This document shows positions 1 through 6,644 of a stretch of DNA of 64,000 nucleotides, piece by piece. This DNA is from Pseudonocardia sulfidoxydans NBRC 16205. Its GTDB lineage: Bacteria; Actinomycetota; Actinomycetes; Mycobacteriales; Pseudonocardiaceae. Both the position numbers and the translations under genes were made by a program. Positions within the stretch are counted from its first letter, which is position 1, and each line of letters begins with the position of its first letter. The DNA lies in NCBI RefSeq assembly GCF_007989085.1, contig NZ_BJVJ01000002.1, positions 124,001-188,000 of the forward strand, given 5' to 3'. The notes under the pieces were generated by a model. It did not search any database and was not told where the DNA came from. It saw only the letters and a program-made list of their open reading frames with translations.

Positions 1-1443
1 CTCGCCCGCCGAGTCGTGGTGGCCCAGCGAGCGCCACAGCCGCGCCGTCTGCACCAGCAGCTCGAGACCGACCTCGCGCTCGAACTCCAGGTCGCCGGTG
101 GCGGCGACGTGGCGGCGCACGGCGTCGGCGATGTCGGCGTTGATGTGGAACGCGGCGGTACCGGCGGGCCAGTAGCCGGAGCACTCGTGGCCGCGGATGG
201 TCCGCCACGGGAACGCCGCACCCGCCAGACCCAGCTGCTCGGCGCGTTCCATGGCCTGCGGCAGGATCGAGCGCCGCCAGCGCAGCGCGTCGGCCGCCGC
301 GTCGGGGGCCAGGTGCGACAACACGGGCAGCGCGAACGTCTCGGTGTCCCAGAAGGTGTGGCCGTCGTAGCCGTCGCCGGTGAGGCCCTTGGCGCCGATG
401 GCGCGCCGCTCCGCCCGGGCACCGGCCTGCAGGACGTGGAACACCGCGAGCCGCACGGCCTGCTGCAGCTCGGCGTCACCGTCGATCTCGACGTCGGCGG
501 TGATCCAGAAGTCGTCGAGGTAGGCGCGCTGTTCGGCGAGCAGCCCGTCCCAGCCGGTGAACCGGGCCGCGGCCAGCGCCGCGCGGACCTGGTCGTGCAC
601 CGCGGGCAGCGACCGCCGCGACGACCAGCCGTAGGACAGGTACTTGACGATCCGCAGCGTCTCCCCCGGCTTGAGCCGGGCGATCACCGTGGTGCGGCCG
701 ATGTCCTCGGTGGCCTCCGACGACGTCTGCGTCGACTCCGGCCCGTACACCTCGTGGTCCATCGCCGCGGCCAGGCGCAGCCCCGACTGCCGGGTCTGGT
801 GCACGAGCGTGGCGCCGGCGCTCTCGCTGCGGTGCTGCTCGGACACCAGCGGCTCGGCCAGCGCGGCCTCGACACGGGGGTCACCGTTGGCGCGCTGCGG
901 GAGCTGCTCGTTGGCGACGAGCTCGGACTGCACGACGAGCGTCGTCGGTGCGTCGACGGCCTCGACCTCGTAGCAGATCGCCGCGATGGCCCGCTGTGTC
1001 AGCGACACCAGCCGGGTGCTGCGCACCCGGATCGTCTTGTCGGCGGGCGAGGCCCACTCGACCTCGCGGGTGAGCGTCCCGGCCTGCAGGTCGAGCACCC
1101 GCTCGTGGCGGGTGAGGTTGCCGTAGCGCAGGTCGAACGGCTCGTCGTCGACCAGCAGCCGGATCAGCTTGCCGTTGGTGACGTTGATGATCGTCTGACC
1201 GGACTCCGGGTAGCCGTAGCCGCCCTCGGCATACGGCAGGGGCCGCCGCTCGTACAGCGAGTTCAGGTAGGTGCCGGGGATGGCGTGCGGCTCGCCCTCG
1301 TCGAGGTTGCCGCGCATCCCGATGTGGCCGTTGGACAGCGCGAACACCGACTCGGTCTGGCCCATCGCCTCCAGGTGCAGCGCCGGTTCGCGCACGCACC
1401 ACGGCTCGACGGTGAACGGCCGCCCGGCCTCCGCGGCGGTCAC
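1..1443 (-). CDS. Glycoside hydrolase family 65 phosphorylase (partial, 3' end off window)
   Basis: The first 481 residues are visible; the C-terminal part lies beyond the left edge. GH65 enzymes split an alpha-glucobiose (trehalose, kojibiose, nigerose or maltose) with phosphate to beta-glucose-1-phosphate and glucose in the cytosol. The N-terminal beta-sandwich covers about residues 10-270 ([13 protein letters not shown] at 34-46). The helical catalytic barrel follows, with [13 protein letters not shown] at 358-370, [17 protein letters not shown] at 412-428 and [10 protein letters not shown] at 433-442, all typical of the family. The GTG start overlaps the stop of the upstream phosphomutase gene as GTGA, so the two are probably translationally coupled. 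The substrate cannot be told from this fragment. Confidence 0.9.
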
Positions 1444-2189
1444 CGGGCCGCCCCGTCGAGCAGCTCCGCCAGGTCGTCGACGACGACCGTCGCACCGTGC
1501 TCGCGCAGCGCCGCCGCCTGGTCGAGCCGGTTGACCCCGACGACCGCGACGAACCCGCCGGCGCGGCCCGCCGCCACCCCGGCGAGCGCGTCCTCGAACA
1601 CGACGGCCTCACCGATACCGACCCCGAGATCGGCCGCGGCGGCGAGGAACGTGTCGGGCGCGGGTTTGCCGGGCAGCGACCGCTGCTTCGCGACGACACC
1701 GTCGACCCGGTGGTCGACGTAGCGCGCGAGGCCGGATACCTCCAGGACCTGCTCGGCGTTGGCCGACGACGACACCACCGCCGTGGCCAGCCCGGCCTCG
1801 CGCACCGCCGTCAGGTAGCGCACCGAGCCCGGGTAGACGTCGACACCGTTCGTCGTGATCTTCTCCTGGACCAGGTCGTTCTTACGGGTCGACAGGCCCC
1901 AGACCGTGTCGGCCGACGGCCCGTCGTCCGGGCCGCCGAGGGGCAGCTCGATGGCGCGGGAGCGCAGGAACTCGGCCGTGCCCTCCATCCGTGGCCGGCC
2001 GTCGACGTACGGGCCGTAGTCGGCCGACAGGTCGAACGGCCGCAACGGCTGGCCCGTGCGCTGCGAGCGGGCCCGCAGGAAGTCGTCGAACATCTGCTTC
2101 CACGCCGCGGCGTGGACGCTCGCGGTGTCGGTCAGGACACCGTCGAGATCGAACAGGCAGGCGCGTGTGGCGTCCGGCAGACCCAGCAT
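1440..2189 (-). CDS. HAD-family hydrolase, beta-phosphoglucomutase-like
   Basis: 249 residues. HAD motif I is clear ([12 protein letters not shown], nucleophile Asp14 and acid/base Asp16). Motif II is [12 protein letters not shown], and the Lys/acidic motifs are [16 protein letters not shown] and [13 protein letters not shown]. The cap insertion after motif I is of the beta-phosphoglucomutase type. Known family role: beta-glucose-1-phosphate to glucose-6-phosphate, which would take the product of the adjoining GH65 phosphorylase into glycolysis. The stop overlaps the GH65 start by four bases, so they form a two-gene disaccharide phosphorolysis unit. A trehalose-6-phosphate phosphatase-like role is a less likely alternative. 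The start is ATG with no competing upstream codon in good context. Confidence 0.9.
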
Positions 2190-2254: not shown

Positions 2255-3832
2255 CTACGTGATGGTGGCGACGGCCGGGCGCACCGTCCAGGACTGCTCC
2301 GTGGCCGTCTCGGTGATCGTCACGACGCAGTGCTCGCCGTCCGCGGCGGCCTCCACGGTGACCGTGCCGCCCTCGGGCCGCGGCTCGACGATCTCCTGCA
2401 CCACGGACCTGACCCGGCCCAGCACCTCCATCGAGGTGACGGGGACGTCGTCGAGACCGGGTGCCGACGACACCGTCGACGTGAGCCGCTTGCCGAAGCG
2501 GGCCTGCTCCAGCTGCAGGTAGGCCCGCACCGAGTCGAGCTCGTCGCGCAGGGTGATCGTGTCGTCGGTGGGGCGGTCGGCCGCGCGGGTCAGGTCGGCG
2601 AACCCCAGCAGCAGCTCCCGGGCCCGGCCCGGGTCGGTGCGCACCAGCGACGCGATCGTGTTGAGCGAGTTGTAGACGAAGTGCTGCTCGAGCCGGCGGG
2701 CCTGCACGCGCGCGGCCGGGTCGGGACCGGCCGGCGCGGCCGGTTCCGGCGGGGCCTGGGCGGCCGGCCGCGGCGAGGGCTCCTCGGGCCCGTCCAGGTC
2801 GACCGTGCGTACCTGCGCGTCGGTGCCGTCGTCCCAGCGCTCGTCGTCGGCGAACTCGTCGTCCCACAGGCCGTCCTCGACGTCCTCCGGAGCGACCAGC
2901 CCGCGCCACACCGGCAGCCGCAGCCGCCCGCCCACCGTCCACTCGGTGAACTCGACCTGCCCGACCAGCCGCGGCACCGCCCAGCGGGCGTCCCGGGCCA
3001 CACTCGCCGGCACCTCGCCCGCGAACGCCGAGTCGTCGGTGCCCAGGTCGGGCAGCAGCGCGGTCACCGCCGCGCGCGGGGCGCCCGCGCCCAGACCCAC
3101 CCGGCCGACGTAGCGCAACCCGCCCGGACCCGGTACGCCCAGCAGCAGCGCGGCCACCGTGTCGGGACGGTCGGGCGAGGCCGGTGTCCACCCGCCGACG
3201 ACGACCTGCCGCGACTGCCGCAACGGCACCCGCAGCCAGTTCCGCGACCGCCGCCCCGGCTGGTAGGCCGAGTCGAGCCGCTTCGCGTAGACACCGTCGA
3301 GGCCGTAGCGCCGGGCCGTCGCCAGCACGTGCCCGGCATCGCCTGCCGGCCACGACGGCGACAGCACGACCGGCTGCTCGGCGAGCCCGAGATCGTCGAC
3401 GAGCTCGCGGCGACGCTGGTAGGGAAGCGCCGTCGTCGGCTCACCGTCGAGCCACAGCAGGTCGCTGACGAAGAAGCCCACCGGCACGTCGGCCACCAGC
3501 GTCGCGCCCGGCCGCTGCGTGGCGGTGCGGCGCATCAGCAGCCGCCTGCTCGGCACGCCCGCGTCGTCGAGCGCGACGACCGTCCCGTCGAGGATCACCC
3601 CGCCCCGCGGGGCCTTGGCCGCCAGCACGTGCAGCTCCGGGAACGCCGACGTGACCGACCGGTCCCGGGCGGTGAGCATCCGGACGCGGCCGGGGCGCGC
3701 GTAGGCGATGCAGCGCAGCCCGTCCCACGCGAACTCGACGGCCCAGCCCGGGCCGCTCGGCAGGTCCCCGGTGGCCGCCTGCATGGGCGGCACCAGGTCG
3801 GGCATCCCGCCCGCGCCCGCCCGGCCCATCAC
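2255..3832 (-). CDS. Degenerate LigD-type ATP-dependent DNA ligase domain fused to a LytS-type histidine-kinase domain
   Basis: 525 residues. Residues 11-320 align along a whole LigD ligase module: VPPM entry, nucleotidyltransferase domain, then an OB fold (PRLVGQVEFTEWTVGGRLR at 287-305, WRGL at 309-312). The catalytic set is broken: motif I is AWDG with Ala35 where the AMP-accepting Lys belongs, motif III is DGT instead of DGE, motif IV is DGVYAK instead of EGVxAK, and motif V is WLRVP with both lysines lost. An acidic, Pro-rich linker (321-378) leads to a LytS/YehU-like dimerisation domain, LEQHFVYNSLNTIASL at 381-396 with His384, and ELDSVRAYLQLEQARFGKRL at 431-450. The ATPase part at 460-515 lacks a recognisable N box and DxGxG box. 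Inferred: a non-enzymatic sensor or scaffold. Residue 10 (Met) is an alternative start. No Ku or LigD polymerase gene is nearby. Confidence 0.88.
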   Translation of the reverse strand: MMGRAGAGGMPDLVPPMQAATGDLPSGPGWAVEFAWDGLRCIAYARPGRVRMLTARDRSVTSAFPELHVLAAKAPRGGVILDGTVVALDDAGVPSRRLLMRRTATQRPGATLVADVPVGFFVSDLLWLDGEPTTALPYQRRRELVDDLGLAEQPVVLSPSWPAGDAGHVLATARRYGLDGVYAKRLDSAYQPGRRSRNWLRVPLRQSRQVVVGGWTPASPDRPDTVAALLLGVPGPGGLRYVGRVGLGAGAPRAAVTALLPDLGTDDSAFAGEVPASVARDARWAVPRLVGQVEFTEWTVGGRLRLPVWRGLVAPEDVEDGLWDDEFADDERWDDGTDAQVRTVDLDGPEEPSPRPAAQAPPEPAAPAGPDPAARVQARRLEQHFVYNSLNTIASLVRTDPGRARELLLGFADLTRAADRPTDDTITLRDELDSVRAYLQLEQARFGKRLTSTVSSAPGLDDVPVTSMEVLGRVRSVVQEIVEPRPEGGTVTVEAAADGEHCVVTITETATEQSWTVRPAVATIT

Positions 3833-4103
3833 GTCGCTCAGCGTAGTTCGCGGCCCCGGCCCCGGACGCCGCCCGTCGGCCGTACGGACGCCACAGCGGG
3901 ACGAACGGAGATCAACTGGTGTCCCGGGAGCGCCGAACGGTCGGCTCCGCGGCCTCGCACACCCGCCGGATCGCCGTGACCTGCGACGACCACTCCCCGG
4001 CCCGGTCGCCGACGACGCCGTTCACCCGCTCGGCGCACCCGGTGGCTCCCCCGGCAACCCCGGCGCGGCACCGACTCCGCCCGCGGGGCACCATCGACCC
4101 ATC

Positions 4104-6644
4104 ATGACCAGCACCCTCGCCGACCGGCTGCCCTCCCCCGACGACCCCGACGCCCTCGTCGAGACCTTCGCCGAGTGGGCGTTCGAGGAGCAGGGCCTGT
4201 CGCTGTACCCGGCGCAGGAGGAGGCGCTGCTGGAGCTGGTCACCGGCGCGAACGTCATCCTGTCGACGCCCACCGGCTCCGGGAAGTCGCTCGTCGCCAT
4301 CGCCGCGCACGCCGTCGCGCTGGCCCGCGGCGAGCGGACGTTCTACACCGCGCCGATCAAGGCGCTCGTCAGCGAGAAGTTCTTCGCGCTGTGCGCGGTG
4401 TTCGGCGCCGACAAGGTCGGCATGCTCACCGGCGACGCCGCCGTCAACGAGACCGCGCCGATCATCTGTTGCACCGCCGAGATCCTCGCCAACATCGCGC
4501 TGCGCGGCGGCAAGGGTGCCGACGTCGGCTCGGTGATCATGGACGAGTTCCACTTCTACGCCGACCCCGCACGCGGCTGGGCGTGGCAGGTCCCGCTGAT
4601 CGAGCTGCCGCAGGCGCAGTTCCTGCTGATGAGCGCCACCCTGGGCGACGTCACCTTCTTCCGCGACGACCTCACCCGCCGCACCGGCCGCCAGACCGCG
4701 GTGATCACGTCGGCGGAGCGGCCGGTGCCGCTGCACTACCGCTACGTCCTCACGCCGCTGCACGAGACCATCGACGAGCTGCTCTCGACGCACGAGGCCC
4801 CCGTCTACGTCGTGCACTTCACCCAGCAGGCTGCCGTCGAACGGGCGCAGTCGCTGATGAGCGTCAACGTCTCCTCCAAGGAGGACAAGGCCGCCATCGC
4901 CGACCTCATCGGCGCCTTCAGGTTCACCGCCGGGTTCGGCAAGACGTTGTCGCGGCTGGTCCGCCACGGCATCGGCGTCCACCACGCGGGCATGCTGCCG
5001 CGCTACCGCCGCCTCGTCGAGACGCTCGCCCAGGCCGGTCTGCTCAAGGTCATCTGCGGCACCGACACCCTCGGCGTCGGCATCAACGTCCCCATCCGGA
5101 CGGTGCTGTTCACCGCGCTCACCAAGTACGACGGCGTACGCGTGCGCGGGCTCAAGGCCCGCGAGTTCCACCAGATCGCCGGCCGTGCCGGGCGGGCCGG
5201 CTACGACACCGTCGGCACCGTCGTCGCCGAGGCTCCCGACCACGAGGTCGAGAACGCCCGGCTGCTCGCCCGCGCCGGCGACGACCTGAAGAAGCGCAAG
5301 CGGATCGTGCGCAAGCAGCCGCCGGAAGGGTTCGTCGGCTGGAGCGAGAAGTCGTTCGAACGGCTGCAGACCGCGCAGCCCGAAGCGCTGACCAGCCACT
5401 TCGCAGTCACGCACTCCATGCTGCTCAACGTCGTCTCCCGCCCCGGCGACGCCTTCGCCGCCATGCGCCACCTGCTCGAGGACAACCACGAGCCCCGCGA
5501 CCGGCAGCGCCGCCACATCCTGCGCGCCATCGCCATCTACCGGGCCCTGCGCGACTCCGGCGTCGTCGAGGAGCTCCCCGAGCCCGACGCCGAGGGCCGC
5601 CGCGTCCGCGTCGTCGGCGACCTGCAGCTCGACTTCGCGCTCAACCAGCCCCTGTCCCCCTTCGCCCTCGCCGCCGTCGAGCTCCTCGACCGCGAGTCGC
5701 CCACCTACGTCCTCGACGTCCTCTCCACCATCGAGGCCACCCTCGACGACCCGCGCCAGGTCCTGCACGCGCAGGAGAACAAGGCCCGCGGCGAGGCCGT
5801 GCAGCAGATGAAGGCCGACGGCATCGAGTACGAGGAGCGCATGACGCTGCTCGAGGACGTCACCTACCCCAAGCCCCTCGCGGAGTCCCTCGACGCCGCG
5901 CTCGAGACCTACCGCCGCGGCCACCCCTGGGTCGCCGACACCCGGCTCTCCCCCAAGTCCGTCGTGCGGGACATGTCCGAGCGGTCGATGACGTTCGTCG
6001 AGTACGTCGGCTACTACCAGCTCGCCCGCTCCGAAGGCCTCGTCCTGCGCTACCTGGCCGACGCCTACCGCGCGCTGCGCCAGACCGTGCCCGACGACGC
6101 CAAGACCGAGGAGCTCACCGACCTCGTCGAATGGCTCGGCGAATTGGTCCGGCAGGTCGACTCCAGCCTCCTCGACGAGTGGGAGGCCCTCGCCGCGGGC
6201 GCCGGGGCCGGCGACGAACCCACCCCCCCGTCCCTCGACCAGGGCCCGGCCGGTGTCACCCGCAACGTCCGCGCCTTCCGCGTGCTGGTGCGCAACGCCC
6301 TGTTCCGCCGCGTCGAGCTCGCCGCCTTGCGGCGCTGGGACCTGCTCGGTGAGCTCGACGGCGGTCAGGGGTGGGATGCGGACGCGTGGCGCGAGGCGTT
6401 CGAGCCCTACTGGGACCTGCACGACGACATCGGCACCGGCCCCGACGCCCGCGGCCCCCAGCTCGTGTCGATCGAGGTCGAGCCCGAGCGCTGGCGCGTC
6501 CGCCAGGTCCTCGACGACCCCGCGGGCGACCGCGACTGGGCCATCACCGCCGAGGTCGACCTCGCCGCGTCCGACGAGGCCGGCGAGGCCGTCGTCTGGG
6601 TCACCGGGGTCTCCGACGCGACGGACTGGGCCCGGGCCTCGTAG
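4104..6644 (+). CDS. DExH-box (Ski2-like) helicase with C-terminal DUF3516-type region
   Basis: 846 residues from ATG 4104; an in-frame upstream extension exists but lacks helicase homology. RecA-like domain 1 has STPTGSGKS (Walker A), DEFH (Walker B) and MSATL. Domain 2 ends with HQIAGRAGRAG. The C-terminal 400 residues match the region described as DUF3516 in actinobacterial Ski2-like helicases. Probable role: ATP-dependent unwinding of RNA in processing or decay; substrates are not known. It is transcribed divergently from the ligase/kinase fusion across a 270-bp gap (3833-4103) in which I see no other gene. Confidence 0.93.
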   Translation: MTSTLADRLPSPDDPDALVETFAEWAFEEQGLSLYPAQEEALLELVTGANVILSTPTGSGKSLVAIAAHAVALARGERTFYTAPIKALVSEKFFALCAVFGADKVGMLTGDAAVNETAPIICCTAEILANIALRGGKGADVGSVIMDEFHFYADPARGWAWQVPLIELPQAQFLLMSATLGDVTFFRDDLTRRTGRQTAVITSAERPVPLHYRYVLTPLHETIDELLSTHEAPVYVVHFTQQAAVERAQSLMSVNVSSKEDKAAIADLIGAFRFTAGFGKTLSRLVRHGIGVHHAGMLPRYRRLVETLAQAGLLKVICGTDTLGVGINVPIRTVLFTALTKYDGVRVRGLKAREFHQIAGRAGRAGYDTVGTVVAEAPDHEVENARLLARAGDDLKKRKRIVRKQPPEGFVGWSEKSFERLQTAQPEALTSHFAVTHSMLLNVVSRPGDAFAAMRHLLEDNHEPRDRQRRHILRAIAIYRALRDSGVVEELPEPDAEGRRVRVVGDLQLDFALNQPLSPFALAAVELLDRESPTYVLDVLSTIEATLDDPRQVLHAQENKARGEAVQQMKADGIEYEERMTLLEDVTYPKPLAESLDAALETYRRGHPWVADTRLSPKSVVRDMSERSMTFVEYVGYYQLARSEGLVLRYLADAYRALRQTVPDDAKTEELTDLVEWLGELVRQVDSSLLDEWEALAAGAGAGDEPTPPSLDQGPAGVTRNVRAFRVLVRNALFRRVELAALRRWDLLGELDGGQGWDADAWREAFEPYWDLHDDIGTGPDARGPQLVSIEVEPERWRVRQVLDDPAGDRDWAITAEVDLAASDEAGEAVVWVTGVSDATDWARAS

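Follow-up and report, generated by a model that had tools for sequence, protein, structure and literature searches.

A predicted inactive LigD-type ligase fold joined to a LytS-type histidine-kinase module in Pseudonocardia and related genera: a possible receptor for DNA breaks

Introduction

Why should a DNA ligase that appears unable to seal DNA be carried, in a single reading frame, in front of a histidine kinase? The question is raised by a gene at 2255..3832 (minus strand) of the window, a stretch of 64,000 nucleotides from Pseudonocardia sulfidoxydans NBRC 16205 (contig NZ_BJVJ01000002.1, positions 124,001 to 188,000). Bacteria respond to broken DNA chiefly through RecA and LexA and, in actinobacteria, also through PafBC. 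Our tentative answer, which we put somewhat short of an even chance, is that the product is a pseudo-ligase signalling protein, in which the dead LigD-type fold would serve as the DNA-break-binding input of a LytS-type histidine-kinase module.

Domain organisation of the fusion protein

The open frame described in the original prediction is real. It runs for 525 codons from a GTG start at 3832 down to 2255, with alternative ATG starts at 3829 and 3805, and it joins, as had been claimed, a LigD-type ligase fold to a LytS-type kinase half (all segments given below lie on the minus strand). Residues 15-203 (3224..3790) correspond to a LigD-type nucleotidyltransferase fold without the catalytic Lys, the motif III Glu and the motif V Lys, and residues 206-315 (2888..3217) to the OB-fold domain of the ligase half. 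A variable linker follows (residues 316-371, 2720..2887), in which the predicted local distance difference test score (pLDDT) of the model is below 50 over residues 330-365. Residues 372-450 (2483..2719) are the LytS-type dimerisation and histidine-phosphotransfer (DHp) helices with His384 at the phospho-acceptor position (2681..2683). The last segment, residues 451-517 (2282..2482), is a truncated HATPase remnant of one helix and a sheet, lacking both the N-box Asn and DxGxG.

Pfam placed DNA_ligase_A_M at residues 28-201, DNA_ligase_A_C at 224-312 and His_kinase (PF06580), with its H-box His, at 380-450, all over the cut-off, while the same scan found no HATPase domain up to E 1. The nearest solved sequence was the ligase domain of mycobacterial LigD (1vs0). 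The view that the ligase fold and its OB domain are both kept is thus borne out by the Pfam domains and by the structure model.

The ligase half lacks its catalytic residues in all fused proteins examined

Two alignments were used. The first comprised 121 rows, namely the window protein and 120 of 699 homologues (among the matches listed); the second was extended to 261 rows (the window protein, P0003-P0242 and L118-L137), of which 256 are fused and five are stand-alone ligases (L130-L134). Of the 256 fused rows, 249 have aligned residues at motif I as well as at the kinase histidine, so that both halves lie in one protein.

In active ligases the motif I Lys, the motif III Glu and the motif V Lys contact the nucleotide. 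The remnant of motif I in the window protein (residues 35-40, A-W-D-G-L-R, 3713..3730) has Ala35 at the Lys position and keeps Arg40. Among the 119 rows of the first alignment with a letter at the Lys position, Ala occurred in 110 and Gly in 9, never Lys, and Arg40 was kept in 119 of 119. None of the 121 rows had the motif III Glu, the residue there being Thr, Val, Leu or Phe, and the motif V Lys was Arg in 117 and Lys in 4. The losses at these motifs reported in the original prediction are therefore confirmed. At motif IV the prediction has to be toned down: the Glu site is a conservative one, with Asp in 79 and Glu in 42 of the 121 rows. Lys184 of the same motif was Lys in 66, Arg in 54 and His in one.

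The extended alignment gave the same picture. The motif I Lys occurred in 0 of 250 fused rows that have a residue aligned at this position, making its absence family-wide among the proteins examined, and the motif III Glu in 0 of 252; all five stand-alone relatives kept both. When the fused proteins were divided into three groups, the positions of Lys35, Arg55, Glu84 and Lys201 were lost or nearly so in each (retention of Arg55 0, 0 and 5%; of Lys201 3, 0 and 0%), and the substitutes varied among the groups. Arg40, Arg102, Arg195 and Trp199 were retained at 95% or more in every group. As judged from these residues, the ligase site appears dead in every fused row examined. Separate ligases that retain KWDG are encoded elsewhere in the window's own genome.

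Several fused proteins are labelled 'DNA ligase (ATP)' in UniRef, although the fused rows examined are without the catalytic Lys; the label is likely a misannotation.

The kinase half keeps its histidine while its ATP site is lost patchily

At the position of His384, which the original prediction had noted in the LytS helix, every row with an aligned residue had His (120 of 120 in the first alignment, 255 of 255 fused rows in the extended one), and the neighbouring H-box residues were invariant. The prediction was also right that the window protein lacks the N and DxGxG boxes. It went further, however, and proposed a coordinated loss of both active sites. This part has to be abandoned, because sister genera keep the ATP-site motifs of the kinase: many fusions retain DxGxG, and none examined retains KxDG.

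The motifs were followed in a second homologue set, obtained by a search from an Actinomycetospora member, in which the Actinomycetospora block was delimited by list order and names. Both boxes were kept in 50 of the 51 rows of this block and in five of five Actinomycetospora loci. Outside it both were present in 33 of 69 rows (Asn in 48 of 69) and in 7 of 10 other locus rows. Among the 120 listed rows from the search with the window protein, one (P0109) had both boxes and 15 had a DxGxG match. Intact boxes were thus found in fusions of Actinomycetospora and of two further sister genera. Since P0197, labelled Pseudonocardia sp., also keeps both, loss of the ATP site is not strictly a genus trait. 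Three further Pseudonocardia proteins (L135, L136 and L137, from genomes G010, G012 and G021) come from a different locus and have a full-length kinase half in which the N and DxGxG boxes are altered in part; by sequence these halves appear intermediate between the intact and the truncated type. Detection of HATPase_c by hmmscan was uneven in relatives classed as intact (L120 23.4 bits at a cut-off of 26.4, L137 27.9) and failed in a shortened slice of L129; a precomputed domain table assigned the domain to 50 of the 51 rows of the Actinomycetospora block.

In a quick tree of 85 ligase halves (78 fused, 7 with KWDG) all fused rows fell to the same side of a branch whose Shimodaira-Hasegawa-like approximate likelihood ratio test (SH-aLRT) value was 90, short of the 95 that the program stars. 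At least six changes between an intact and a lost ATP site are needed on this tree, and we infer that they were losses rather than gains. The kinase ATP site thus appears to have been lost later than the ligase site, and patchily.

Because the ligase half filled the fold list of the whole protein, the kinase half was modelled and searched by itself. ChpT then came out level with ordinary kinases. The window protein does combine, as ChpT and Spo0B do, DHp helices carrying a His with an ATPase-like domain that is predicted from sequence to be ATP-incompetent. As to descent from ChpT or Spo0B, what speaks for it is the fold similarity, tied with that to ordinary kinases, and the sequence is nearest to LytS.

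Distribution and selection

A match at E 1e-50, which a plain ligase can also give, was found in 61 of 62 genomes of the genus. Counted among the matches listed, both halves lay in one place in 53 of the 62 (52 as one alignment, and G005 in two pieces on one contig). The halves were on two contigs in three genomes (G006, G027 and G042), the ligase half was found alone in another three (G024, G055 and G061), and no fusion was found in G051, G063 and G065. The joint occurrence in 53 of 62 genomes puts the fusion beyond chance. In 297 genomes of the family, from 46 genera, the fusion was present outside the genus, again among the matches listed, in 17 of 18 genomes of g50 (Actinomycetospora, by the names in the homologue table), 10 of 10 of g11 and 2 of 2 of g45, so that the pairing is retained in four related genera. 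A search of 397 genomes of the order and 396 of the phylum (E 1e-100, three candidates scored per genome) gave no new carriers; the matches with two halves were the known carriers of the family.

The ratio of nonsynonymous to synonymous substitution rates (dN/dS) was calculated by the Nei-Gojobori method for each segment of the window gene against single relatives. Against L030, whose protein is 91% identical, it was 0.10 in the ligase half (301 codons), 0.15 in the linker, 0.02 in the dimerisation helices (79 codons) and 0.39 in the ATPase remnant (60 codons). Against L017 the values were 0.08, 0.48, 0.22 and 0.46 in the same order. The more distant L019, L018 and L050 gave 0.20-0.47 for the ligase half, 0.13-0.33 for the helices and 0.73-0.82 for the remnant; these higher values may arise because dS saturates in GC-rich DNA. 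The comparison with the near relative indicates strong purifying selection on both the dead ligase and the dimerisation helices.

Genomic context and linkage to Ku

In the window the fusion gene is flanked by a divergent gene for a DUF3516 DEAD-type helicase (4104..6644, plus strand) and, downstream, by genes for a HAD-type hydrolase (1440..2189, minus strand) and a glycoside-phosphorylase-like protein, which we take to belong to family GH65 (1..1431, minus strand, cut by the window edge). All three are syntenic. Fifty loci were compared, ten of which (L057-L066) match the kinase half alone. In the 40 loci of the Pseudonocardia type (L017-L056) the divergent helicase was present in 35, four of the other five ending at a contig end; the hydrolase lay on the other side in 37 and the glycoside-phosphorylase-like gene in 39.

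The sister genera place the fusion in a different setting. In g11 a gene for Ku lies directly upstream of it on the same strand in all ten loci, of which a contig end truncates three (for the Ku of L120, PF02735 was matched at E 1.4e-47). In g45 Ku adjoins the fusion convergently in L124 and was not found near it in L123. Of 17 Actinomycetospora carriers 16 were surveyed. One of these sits on a short contig; in all 15 loci that reach far enough, Ku is encoded 8-14 kb from the fusion and on the opposite strand. Linkage is thus present in g11, in g50 and, of the two g45 genomes, in one, and absent in the window's genome; Ku itself is encoded in all 21 fused genomes checked, which were fused carriers only. 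According to the extracts of PMC5124664, some Streptomyces ligD genes with a ligase domain alone can adjoin ku. The ancestor of the fusion was, by this analogy, plausibly a Ku-linked ligase.

Actinomycetospora loci L166-L180 carry a second, stand-alone ligase-like gene beside Ku (e.g. L166:5425-6471), and in all 15 Asp stands where motif I would have its Lys; the gene is possibly for a second dead ligase. In the window's genome a related gene, on contig C21, adjoins Ku and still encodes KWDG.

Membership of a defence system was also considered and discarded: PADLOC models were run against the window protein and against its relative L120 from g11, and neither gave a match.

Candidate signalling partners

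Of 57 receiver domains in the window's genome, none lies on the 193 kb contig C2, so that the fusion is an orphan there. The genome has three LytTR genes. Two encode a receiver and both lie near other LytS genes, namely a GAF-LytS gene on contig C89 and a LytS gene on C4, each with its receiver-LytTR regulator close by; in the third LytTR protein (C66) Pfam found no receiver domain. Helix identities, measured over the first 75 alignment columns, bear on the origin of the kinase half and are higher to the C89 protein. The window helices are 52% identical to it and 41% to the C4 LytS, those of four other rows of the window type 46-52% and 40-45%, and those of all 11 compared rows outside this truncated type 60-77% and 47-59%. 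All 21 fused genomes examined for it encode a regulator of the C89 type. The C89 LytS-LytTR pair is accordingly the candidate that we would name as partner of the fusion.

The C89 LytS gene (L149:7752-8630) adjoins a gene for a DNA glycosylase of the Fpg/Nei type, perhaps a further tie of this type of LytS to DNA repair.

Proposed function and alternatives

The adenylation site is lost, the ligase fold is kept and Ku is encoded beside it in some lineages; the protein therefore likely reads DNA ends or nicks. The ligase half would grip a nick, an end or a Ku-DNA complex without adenylating or sealing it, and binding would alter the dimer of the LytS-type helices. Because a LytS module stands behind the ligase fold, the output is most simply a phosphoryl signal where the ATP-site motifs remain: in the sister genera the change in the dimer would drive autophosphorylation and then transfer to a LytTR response regulator. 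In the window form, which has no ATP site, the His would have to depend on a different kinase, the simplest candidate being the paralogous C89 LytS. The protein might then act in phosphotransfer like ChpT or Spo0B, or else partner the C89 LytS-LytTR pair; its output is probably either ChpT-like phosphotransfer or dimerisation alone. A more specific version seems to us slightly less probable again. It makes the fusion a double-strand-break receptor derived from a dead ligase of non-homologous end joining (NHEJ), in which Ku and the dead ligase domain feed a histidine-kinase signal, the Pseudonocardia kinase half is an ATP-free phosphotransfer or pseudokinase node, and the alarm is separate from RecA and LexA.

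Several observations tell against a DNA-break signal. Residues that are common to the five active ligases without being catalytic, such as Arg55, are lost as well. Live and dead ligases cannot be separated by net charge: its mean for the ligase half is 9.2, 7.3 and 7.8 in the three fused groups and 7 in the five active rows, and it proves nothing, because single rows reach -4 and the two KWDG ligases of the window's genome have +4 and -4. The Ku genes of that genome are on other contigs (C21 and C13), unlinked to the fusion; no Ku was found near the fusion in the g45 genome G105 or in Pseudonocardia G010, G012 and G021, and in Actinomycetospora other genes intervene, with the two on opposite strands. 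Control by the SOS response or PafBC found no backing, since patterns of the LexA and RecA-NDp type had no match in the window at 3701-4100 or upstream of the fusion in those 24 loci, out of 40, in which the scan recognised the gene start. To these must be added the missing receiver on contig C2, the tie of ordinary kinases with ChpT in the fold list, and the possibilities that the kept His is structural and that the helices serve dimerisation only.

The last of these leads to the strongest alternative, which we consider unlikely: a dimeric scaffold. The dead ligase would keep hold of ends or nicks and the LytS helices would do no more than dimerise it, so that two ends are bridged for Ku and for the ligases that still work; the window form would then send no phosphoryl signal. 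This would account for an ATP site lost while the helices show the lowest dN/dS against L030, for the Ku linkage in sister genera and for the separate KWDG ligases of the same genome. It sits badly with the invariance of His384 and its H-box neighbours and with the ATP-site motifs kept in sister genera, and in the comparison with L017 the ligase half is more constrained than the helices (0.08 versus 0.22).

It is rather improbable, on the sequences compared, that the form without an ATP site is a counter-regulator, a pseudokinase that heterodimerises with a paralogous LytS and dampens it, as the 52% identity of its helices to the C89 paralogue and the repeated changes of the ATP site could suggest. 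Improbable too is a sensor in which the former nucleotide pocket binds a small ligand (a nucleotide or NAD-like) and the link with DNA repair is mere ancestry: the model does retain a nucleotidyltransferase fold, and 66 of 121 rows retain the motif IV Lys, but the nucleotide-contacting residues of motifs I, III and V are gone, with substitutes that differ by clade, and the Ku linkage points to DNA. A decaying pseudogene or a misread fusion, which the disappearance of ligase and ATP site alike from the window protein, together with the loose constraint on the ATPase remnant (dN/dS 0.39 to 0.82), might evoke, is scarcely credible given the low dN/dS of the ligase half and helices against near relatives, the conserved synteny, and the size of the family with both halves in one protein in 249 of 256 rows. 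The original prediction of a repurposed protein rather than a pseudogene is upheld by this selection, by the loss of the ligase site throughout the fused rows examined and by the intact ATP motifs of sister genera near Ku.

Relation to known systems

The pseudo-ligase signalling protein that we favour is assembled from known parts. With the ligase domain of LigD (1vs0, 6nhz) and the stand-alone LigD/LigC ligases of actinobacterial NHEJ it shares sequence homology, the nucleotidyltransferase and OB folds and the Arg of KxDGxR; in most of the sister-genus genomes examined it also lies near Ku, as some Streptomyces ligD genes do according to the extracts of PMC5124664. It differs from these ligases in lacking the catalytic Lys and the motif III Glu and in its C-terminal kinase module. 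Like LytS-type sensor kinases (PF06580; GanS, 6swk) it has dimerisation helices with an H-box His and, in sister genera, the N box and DxGxG. Unlike them it has a dead ligase at its N-terminus, and the window protein has neither an ATP site nor a LytTR regulator on its contig.

The window form resembles ChpT in keeping the His without an ATP site. In ChpT the His carries phosphate without autophosphorylation, and neither ATP nor ADP was seen in the crystals (extracts of PMC3433190). Unlike ChpT and Spo0B, the fusion is closest in sequence to LytS kinases and is joined to a ligase fold.

The pseudokinase DivL also differs from it, belonging to another kinase class, with PAS input domains and Tyr in place of His. 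Each half is known, then, and the dead ligase feeding a kinase would be the new part: we found no ligase of this kind as a kinase input domain in the open-licence literature of PubMed Central (PMC), which says little about subscription journals.

If the proposed function is correct, these actinobacteria would have a direct line from a DNA break to two-component signalling, by way of a dead NHEJ ligase encoded beside Ku, and the protein would be a bacterial case in which an enzyme fold has found a new use as a receptor. Members of the family grade from kinase halves whose ATP-site motifs are intact to a His kept without an ATP site, and this natural series may offer a handle on how a kinase turns into a pseudokinase or a phosphotransferase.
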